Assembly (NCBI GenBank): GCA_937872225.1
Contig: CALMRZ010000034.1
Span: 1 to 64,000 of the forward strand
DNA from: an uncultured Spirochaetota bacterium
GTDB taxonomy: Bacteria; Spirochaetota; UBA4802; UBA5550
DNA: 64,000 bases
Direction: 5' to 3'
A program made the position numbers and the translations under genes. The notes beneath the pieces were generated by a model that did not search any database, was not told the origin of the DNA, and saw nothing but the letters and a program-made list of their open reading frames with translations. The stretch's first letter is position 1; every line of letters starts with the position of its first letter. Shown here one piece after another: positions 26,164 to 27,340 of the stretch.

Positions 26164-26205
26164 TTGACGTACATCAAGGAGGTGCCGGGAAGGCTCTGGT
26201 ATATT
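26164..26205 (+). promoter_or_regulatory. FNR/CRP-type site plus -10 box (class II promoter)
   Basis: TTGAC-GTAC-ATCAA at 26164-26177 matches the FNR consensus TTGAT-N4-ATCAA in 9 of 10 positions. TATATT at 26200-26205 predicts a start at 26212, so the centre of the site is at -41.5, the usual spacing of an activator-dependent class II promoter. It drives the siroheme-reductase-like gene. Confidence 0.65.
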
Positions 26206-26270
26206 CGGTACGGCAGGCACGGTGCGCCATGGCCGGCCCTGCCGTGATATCGGAAACGGAAAGGTCCGCA

Positions 26271-26903
26271 ATGCGTCAGAAAACAGTTATCACAACCCGC
26301 GGCAGCATCGTAATTGAAATGTGCGGAGGCATGGAATGTCCCGGCATCGGGGCTTCCGGAGGCATCCTGTTCAAGGGCCTGTCGTCCCTCGCGGACGGGC
26401 TCACCGGCGGCACTCCGGCGGCCGGCGGCACGGGGCACCGCCGGCCTTTCAGGATATCCCTGTCCTTGTGCGCCAACGGCTGCTCGCGGCCGCAGATAGC
26501 CGACATCGGCGTCATCGGCGCCGTGCAGGTGAGGATTGACGAAGCCTGCTGCACCGGGTGCGGCGCCTGCGTCGCCTTATGCCGTGAACGGGCCATGGCC
26601 CTGGAAGGACTGGAAGGACGTGTTATTCCCGCCATCAACGGCCGGTGCGTGTTCTGCGGGGAGTGCATTGCCGCATGTCCCTTTGACGCGGTCCTCCCCG
26701 CCCGGACCGGATTCCGCATCCTCCTGGGGGGCAGGCTGGGAAGGCGGCCGCGCCTCGGCACGGAACTGCCGGGGTTCCGCACCGAGGGGGAGATAACGGA
26801 TATCGTGAAGAAGGCCTACCTGCTGTACCAATCGACCCCGCCCGGCGCCCGGCTCGGCGACATCATTGAAGAGCGCGGCGCCGGCTGGCTCGACCGCCTC
26901 TAA
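26271..26903 (+). CDS. small siroheme sulfite/nitrite reductase-like protein with two 4Fe-4S clusters
   Basis: A 210-residue protein resembling the minimal (group I) dissimilatory-sulfite-reductase-like proteins. The first half carries the siroheme-cluster motifs in shortened form: CGGMECPGIG and LCANGCSRPQIADIGVIGAV (CX3C). The second half has two ferredoxin motifs, CTGCGACVALCRERA and CVFCGECIAACPFDA, followed by a reductase-like tail (GFRILLGGRLGRRPRLGTELPG). The first Cys pair is CX4C where CX5C is usual, so siroheme binding is not certain. The start at 26271 is preferred for AAAGG upstream; 26229 is possible. The FNR-type promoter suggests anaerobic expression. The true substrate is unknown. 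Confidence 0.75.
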   Translation: MRQKTVITTRGSIVIEMCGGMECPGIGASGGILFKGLSSLADGLTGGTPAAGGTGHRRPFRISLSLCANGCSRPQIADIGVIGAVQVRIDEACCTGCGACVALCRERAMALEGLEGRVIPAINGRCVFCGECIAACPFDAVLPARTGFRILLGGRLGRRPRLGTELPGFRTEGEITDIVKKAYLLYQSTPPGARLGDIIEERGAGWLDRL

Positions 26904-26914
26904 CGGAAACAGGT

Positions 26915-27340
26915 CTACATGGTTTCCCAGAAAAAATTGACCCACACCGACGGGTCCACGCAGCGGCCGTAGAGCACCGGGGCGTCCCGGTCCTTCGACA
27001 CCAGGCACACGGTGTCGAAGGAGACGCGGGGATACAGGGAGTGGATCATCCGTATCGTGCGCCCGCTGTCATAGATGTCGTCGCACAGGAGAAAGAGGTC
27101 CCTCCCGATGTCGGACCGGATGCCGACGTTAAAATCCTTCTGCTCCATCCTGTCATAGGAGGATATCTGGATATACTCCATGGGCAGTCCCAGGTGCCTG
27201 CCCATGAAATAGGAGAGGTAGAATCCGCCCCGAAGGGGGCAGAGTATGGCGCGGTAGTTCTTTCCGTTCCCGCGGATCTTCTCGAGAAGCCCATAGGCCA
27301 GATCCCGGAAGAGGTCATAATCGATGACGAGGCTTTTCAC
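26915..27340 (-). CDS. phosphoribosyltransferase family protein
   Basis: A 141-residue protein with the PRPP-binding loop LFLLCDDIYDSGRTIRMI and an upstream PLRGG segment, typical of type I phosphoribosyltransferases of the purine salvage (xanthine/hypoxanthine) group. Shorter than most hypoxanthine enzymes, so substrate cannot be fixed. GTG start at 27340, three bases after the permease stop codon; it closes a three-gene operon with the ABC transporter genes. Confidence 0.8.
   Translation of the reverse strand: MKSLVIDYDLFRDLAYGLLEKIRGNGKNYRAILCPLRGGFYLSYFMGRHLGLPMEYIQISSYDRMEQKDFNVGIRSDIGRDLFLLCDDIYDSGRTIRMIHSLYPRVSFDTVCLVSKDRDAPVLYGRCVDPSVWVNFFWETM

Follow-up and report, generated by a model that had tools for sequence, protein, structure and literature searches.

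A probable HcpR/DNR-type class II promoter in front of a small siroheme-reductase-like gene in an uncultured spirochaete

Gene content and promoter architecture of the locus

The window, which is the whole stretch of 64,000 nucleotides that was analysed, carries a gene for a siroheme-reductase-like protein of 210 aa (mini-SiR) at 26271–26903 of the plus strand. The region in front of this gene carries a CRP/FNR-family operator of the HcpR1/DNR type, TTGACGTACATCAA, at 26164–26177 of the plus strand. The operator was identified from its sequence, from pattern counts in the genome and the genus, from the boxes of homologous genes, and from the motif reported for HcpR1 (PMC1274295). This box has one mismatch to the FNR consensus TTGATNNNNATCAA and is a TTGAC/ATCAA hybrid. 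Read with its flanking bases c and g (cTTGACGTACATCAAg), it matches the HcpR1 motif wyTTGACnnnnGTCAArw except for one A. An extended -10 element, TGG-TATATT (TGGTATATT), was assigned at 26197–26205 of the plus strand from the sequence and the spacing statistics, and its hexamer TATATT (26200–26205) lies exactly 22 nt from the box. The transcription start that is predicted from this hexamer is 26212 (plus strand), relative to which the centre of the box (26170.5) is at -41.5.

The divergent gene on the other side codes for an acyltransferase (PF01553; 25176–26009, minus strand), as identified from its sequence and Pfam match. That the box serves this acyltransferase was ruled out. No TANNNT hexamer exists at N21-23 on that side, and therefore the box faces the mini-SiR gene. 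That the promoter in front of the mini-SiR gene is real and belongs to class II is well supported.

The translation start of mini-SiR is more likely ATG 26271 than ATG 26229, because a probable ribosome-binding site, GGAAAGG (26258–26264, plus strand), is located 6 nt before the former and the homologues begin at about the same position. ATG 26229 is in frame and has no ribosome-binding site. The Pfam matches of the protein are NIR_SIR (1.7e-14) and Fer4 with two 4Fe-4S motifs. The original prediction read this region as an FNR-type class II promoter before a half-size iron-sulfur protein that resembles sulfite/nitrite reductases. The one-base deviation from the FNR consensus that it gave agrees with the mismatch count, its centre at -41.5 from the start set by TATATT is arithmetically correct, its gene end at 26903 is correct, and its description of the protein is borne out by the NIR_SIR and Fer4 matches.

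Structure of the mini-SiR protein

The protein consists of a NIR_SIR half with Cys18, Cys23, Cys67, and Cys71 and a ferredoxin insert for two [4Fe-4S] clusters with Cys94, Cys97, Cys100, Cys104, Cys126, Cys129, Cys132, and Cys136. The four siroheme-cluster cysteines and the eight ferredoxin cysteines are invariant in 39/39 homologues, and the same is true for Q75, D78, G153-G154, and R158. The candidate substrate-binding residues are R61 (arginine in 30/39 homologues) and R158 (39/39); the N-terminal lobe with the others is absent. The window copy exhibits CX4C at Cys18/Cys23 (26322–26339) whereas the close homologues aligned with it exhibit CX5C, which is either a true loss of one residue or an assembly error.

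The AlphaFold2 model of mini-SiR has a mean pLDDT of 90.6. Its best structural match is the F420-dependent sulfite reductase (Fsr), with about 200 residues, TM 0.75, and E 4e-15, followed by DsrB/DsrA. The sequence profile search agrees that Fsr is the best solved relative. Because both fold and sequence profile match Fsr and DsrB, mini-SiR is assigned, from model and sequence, as the putative siroheme half of a Dsr-like protein that has both extra clusters and no first lobe. The layout with two extra clusters is that of group III Dsr-like proteins and AsrC (PMC3448663).

Occurrence of the box and its spacing

The bare motif on its own is weak evidence and close to chance level. In the 64-kb window, three FNR-type sites deviate from the consensus by no more than one base, and allowing up to two mismatches gives 32 sites where 23 are expected. 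The pattern TTGAYN4RTCAA was found at 22 places in the genome versus 6 for the reversed control.

The box followed by N21-23 and TANNNT occurs 37 times across the six genus members, and 25 of the 37 have exactly N22, which is also the spacing of the window promoter. The nine spacings from N12 to N20 gave 39 occurrences in the same genomes (mean 4.3 per spacing). The excess at N22 (25 versus a mean of 4.3) has a Poisson probability of 8e-12, which becomes 9e-6 when the commonest of the other spacings serves as the reference. The average -10 score of the 21 sites for which it was computed does not peak at N22 because many of these sites fall inside genes; the TANNNT count did peak there.

Perfect TTGAYN4RTCAA boxes were identified upstream of 17/47 homologous genes in named genomes, mostly of Desulfobacterota, a count that includes L079 and L116 where the boxes are within over-extended ORFs yet before the probable start. 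Several of the homologue boxes also have a -10-like hexamer 21–22 nt downstream. The box of a Nitrospiraceae MAG (L102), TTGACGTACGTCAA, is one base away from the window box. Across 51 homologous loci (498 kb), 39 boxes were found, where mononucleotide shuffles expect 1.8 and the reversed pattern gave 1.

The box might be a chance palindrome beside an ordinary sigma-70 promoter, with the gene not regulated through it, and the statistics for a single site are weak enough to allow this. However, the spacing is exactly the N22 that is strongly preferred in the genus, the genes behind such boxes form a regulon of related functions, and distant homologues also have upstream boxes, all of which make a chance palindrome very unlikely. 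The context of spacing, genome counts, and homologue boxes lifts the window box far above chance.

Candidate regulators

The genome that was searched has 4.69 Mb and is 97.7% complete. The HTH_Crp_2 profile matched four proteins in this genome and the PF00325 profile matched none. One of the four is a GntR-like protein and another has no recognition motif. The other two, RegA (C31) and RegB (G000:C4:37614-38273), exhibit the E-x-x-S-R recognition helix of FNR type (TPESFSR in RegA, IPETFSR in RegB) and zero cysteines, and both have Pro180-Glu181 as in HcpR1-type proteins. Since RegA and RegB have no cysteine, neither can carry the oxygen-labile FNR cluster. The FNR cysteine set is absent from all Crp-family matches in the genome.

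The original prediction read the expression as oxygen-regulated and made it depend on an FNR-type regulator in the genome. On this point the outcome is divided: CRP/FNR-family proteins are indeed present, and a cysteine-bearing FNR was not found among them. Regulation by oxygen through FNR is not supported, given that the candidate regulators have no cysteine and that the box and the co-regulated genes match HcpR1/DNR. A classical oxygen-sensing [4Fe-4S] FNR that activates the gene without oxygen would fit the single mismatch to the FNR consensus and the -41.5 spacing, and ndh and heme genes, which are behind other boxes in this genome, are typical FNR targets as well. This reading is nevertheless very unlikely because no protein with FNR cysteines exists among the Crp-family matches of a genome of this completeness, because the 25 N22 boxes of the genus are TTGAC...GTCAA in 14 cases and TTGAT...ATCAA in only three, and because the linked genes are nitrogen-oxide genes.

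The best PDB match of RegB is DNR (3dkw, E 2e-17), which is a heme-based NO sensor. RegB orthologues were identified in six of the six genus members (68–89% identity) and in four further genomes (42–49%). The box with N21-23 and TANNNT occurs on the contig of the RegB orthologue in 10/10 genomes, within 5 kb in nine of them and at 8 kb in G003. The box is located 29–33 bases before the gene of the RegB orthologue itself in G013 and G019. Eleven mini-SiR loci from Desulfobacterota and allies have a RegB-like regulator nearby, whose helix is GTIPETLSR or a close variant of it and which contains 0–1 cysteine; the identity of RegB to the Desulfobacterota regulators is only about 30%. For HcpR1 of delta-proteobacteria, whose motif is given above, Rodionov et al. 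(2005, PMC1274295) reported that residue 180 is Ser or Pro and that the FNR cysteines are missing. Heme-based sensing of NO is likewise a property of HcpR from Porphyromonas (PMC12750200). Judged by these protein sequences, the regulator is most likely of the HcpR/DNR kind and not FNR, with RegB as the favoured candidate.

The gene might instead be controlled by RegA as a FixK/FtrB-like CRP/FNR protein that acts on TTGAT/TTGAC hybrid sites. RegA has the same Pro-Glu..Ser-Arg helix, its top-scoring models are FtrB and FixK although the scores are far below their cut-offs, it adjoins a perfect TTGAT-type site (TTGATTGTAATCAA-N22-TACACT), and the window box is itself such a hybrid. RegB, in contrast, is conserved together with TTGAC boxes in ten genomes, in a survey that covered RegB orthologues, and control by RegA is considered unlikely. 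RegA may run its own regulon. A perfect FNR consensus, TTGATTACAATCAA, is located between RegA and an FmdE-family gene (L038 13759, G000:C31).

Predicted regulon in the genome

Intergenic boxes were also identified in front of other genes in the genome. The box at C4:47439 lies between a gene for an FrdX-like ferredoxin and nrfHA. The box at C4:38471 precedes a DUF438-hemerythrin-PAS gene (L054 2548-3780) and a cupin gene, which are divergent from RegB. Further intergenic boxes belong to a hemerythrin gene (C75), an NDH-2 gene (C95), and the FmdE gene beside RegA (C31). Towards hemB, the box on C46 (L063 2269) is followed by N22 and TACTAT, and its opposite side faces hemC and cobA/hemD; these are genes of heme and siroheme supply. 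A promoter whose spacer is near-identical (AAATA.TTTCTTGCCAAATATAC) was also found in G001, G002, and G004.

The box TTGACCCAGGTCAA is upstream of a two-gene operon on C28 (L060 2426-4795) that encodes the genome's sole COX1-family protein. This protein does not have the HPEVY motif of oxygen reductases (WFWWGLDLIADGL) and is preceded by a small subunit without a Pfam match. From its sequence, it may be an alternative NO reductase (gNOR-like); the classes of such enzymes have been described (PMC8756737).

These findings are consistent with the extended HcpR targets that have been reported, which are nrfHA, ndh, ferredoxins, and hemerythrins (PMC1274295), as nrfHA, ndh, an frdX-like ferredoxin gene, and a hemerythrin gene are all behind boxes here. 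The core target hcp was not found in the genome, where the only PF03063 protein is CODH-like by sequence and has no box. Because of this, we claim that the regulator works like HcpR/DNR and not that it is the HcpR orthologue.

Gene neighbourhood of mini-SiR in relatives

The nearest relative with a mini-SiR gene (G001) is collinear with the window on both sides, and its mini-SiR has 51% identity to the window copy. The syntenic intergenic region of G001 contains TTGACTTAGGTCAA-N22-TACCAT, which is followed by the operon norZ, mini-SiR, and a NapH-like membrane polyferredoxin of 432 aa (L031 6739-11081). The corresponding interval in the window contains only mini-SiR and a phosphoribosyltransferase gene (26915–27340). 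The intergenic DNA around the two syntenic boxes (G000 versus G001) is not alignable, and so the case for these boxes rests on synteny and spacing.

The norZ gene is near mini-SiR also in G032, G019, and G013, and the polyferredoxin gene is near it in G011, so that norZ and/or the membrane polyferredoxin neighbour mini-SiR in five spirochaete genomes. The NO clusters of G019 and G013 also have genes for a flavodiiron protein, hemerythrin, and cupin. The neighbourhood argument is thus drawn from relatives: norZ was not found in the window genome, and a search of that whole genome for the full membrane polyferredoxin gave partial ferredoxin matches only. These absences suggest that parts of the norZ operon were lost in the window lineage and that mini-SiR was left directly behind the promoter, with gain in the other lineage as the alternative. 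The mini-SiR gene of the window genome stands alone under what appears to be the promoter of a norZ operon.

Proposed mechanism and function

The locus is likely to hold a promoter of class II that belongs to a nitrosative-stress regulon of the HcpR/DNR type and controls a probable siroheme nitrogen-oxide reductase. The parts of this reading that were computed are the box, the spacing, the regulon, the regulator type, the fold, and the link of the relatives to norZ and HcpR-like genes. In the proposed mechanism, a cysteine-less CRP/FNR protein that resembles HcpR1 and DNR (RegB most likely, RegA possibly) would bind TTGACGTACATCAA at -41.5 as a dimer, contact RNA polymerase at the extended -10 element (TGGTATATT), and activate transcription with a start near 26212. 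The most likely signal would be NO itself, or nitrite by way of NO, with heme as the sensor as in HcpR and DNR. By analogy, NO/nitrite is a more likely signal than oxygen because the box and the co-regulated genes are HcpR1/DNR-like and the relatives of mini-SiR adjoin NO reductase. The gene would then encode a half-protein of the siroheme-[4Fe-4S] reductase type that includes a ferredoxin domain with two clusters. This protein would act on a nitrogen oxide, be it nitrite, hydroxylamine, or NO, and would serve in defence against nitrosative stress. We infer the binding of RegB, the heme/NO sensing, the siroheme content, the substrate, and the enzyme activity.

It is plausible, by analogy with its relatives, that mini-SiR is a siroheme-type reductase of a nitrogen oxide. 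FsrII of ANME archaea has been reported to reduce nitrite and hydroxylamine but, with F420H2, not sulfite (PMC9295563). Alternatively, mini-SiR could be a sulfite reductase of sulfur metabolism for which the nitrogen-oxide link is secondary, considering that its fold and sequence are closest to Fsr and DsrB and that methanogen Fsr reduces sulfite. We regard this as rather doubtful given the HcpR-type box, the norZ and hemerythrin neighbours, and the activity of ANME FsrII, which is a close structural relative. Within the nitrogen-oxide reading, a more specific and tentative proposal is that mini-SiR, fed by the NapH-like polyferredoxin and expressed with the quinol NO reductase norZ, might be a dedicated nitrosative-stress reductase in both Spirochaetota and Desulfobacterota. 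If this is true, part of the orphan Dsr-like protein family would acquire a physiological job.

With a regulator, box, spacing, and target list that were all computed, this work extends the known range of the HcpR/DNR-type nitrogen-oxide regulon to a genus of uncultured spirochaetes. It also gives a family of small siroheme-type proteins, so far of unknown function, a link across phyla to NO reductase and nitrosative stress. The nitrogen oxides named above are a concrete hypothesis for the substrate of Dsr-like proteins, which have lacked an assigned role ever since their first description.

Comparison with known systems

The window promoter and gene are a Spirochaetota addition to the already known HcpR/DNR kind of regulation. 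Both the system described here and the HcpR1 regulon of delta-proteobacteria (PMC1274295, PMC545781) exhibit the TTGACnnnnGTCAA box, a cysteine-less regulator with Pro180-Glu181, and the targets nrfHA, ndh, hemerythrin, and FrdX-like ferredoxin, and an operon of sulfite/nitrite reductase and polyferredoxin has been predicted to be under HcpR in Desulfovibrio. The system here differs in that it belongs to Spirochaetota, has no hcp, has a hybrid TTGAC/ATCAA box in the window, has no polyferredoxin partner, and has norZ at the head of the operon in the nearest relative (G001).

The DNR of Pseudomonas (TTGATnnnnATCAA) is similar as the best solved match of RegB, in having no FNR cysteines, and in its near-identical DNA site. 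However, the identity is low, and the regulon here resembles ammonification/detoxification and not denitrification. FNR of E. coli shares the ExxSR recognition helix, a near-identical box (TTGATnnnnATCAA), and the class II position, whereas the candidate regulators here have no [4Fe-4S] cysteines.

For two Desulfovibrio species, Rodionov et al. (2004, PMC545781) list an operon annotated as 'putative sulfite/nitrite reductase, polyferredoxin' (206515-206516 and 394469-394470). Its HcpR sites are at -52 and -81, and activation was predicted. Strong induction of this operon by nitrite is given there as a personal communication. The Desulfovibrionaceae locus in our set (L079) has mini-SiR followed by polyferredoxin and, by analogy, is very probably the same operon. 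The Desulfovibrio HcpR differs from the system here in its CRP-like TGTGA site. Upstream of the Desulfovibrionaceae homologue, a CRP-like TGTGA box with fewer than two mismatches was not found and a TTGAC box was found.

Both mini-SiR and the C-terminal siroheme half of Fsr, AsrC, and group III Dsr-like proteins have the siroheme-[4Fe-4S] cysteine quartet and two ferredoxin clusters. In contrast to these proteins, mini-SiR has only about 210 aa, has neither the N-terminal sulfite-reductase lobe nor the F420 domain, has CX4C in place of CX5C in the window copy, and has an added PCP_red domain in many Desulfobacterota versions. This domain (protochlorophyllide reductase tail) is fused to the N-terminus of mini-SiR in many homologues from Desulfobacterota and Bacillota (L074-L119).
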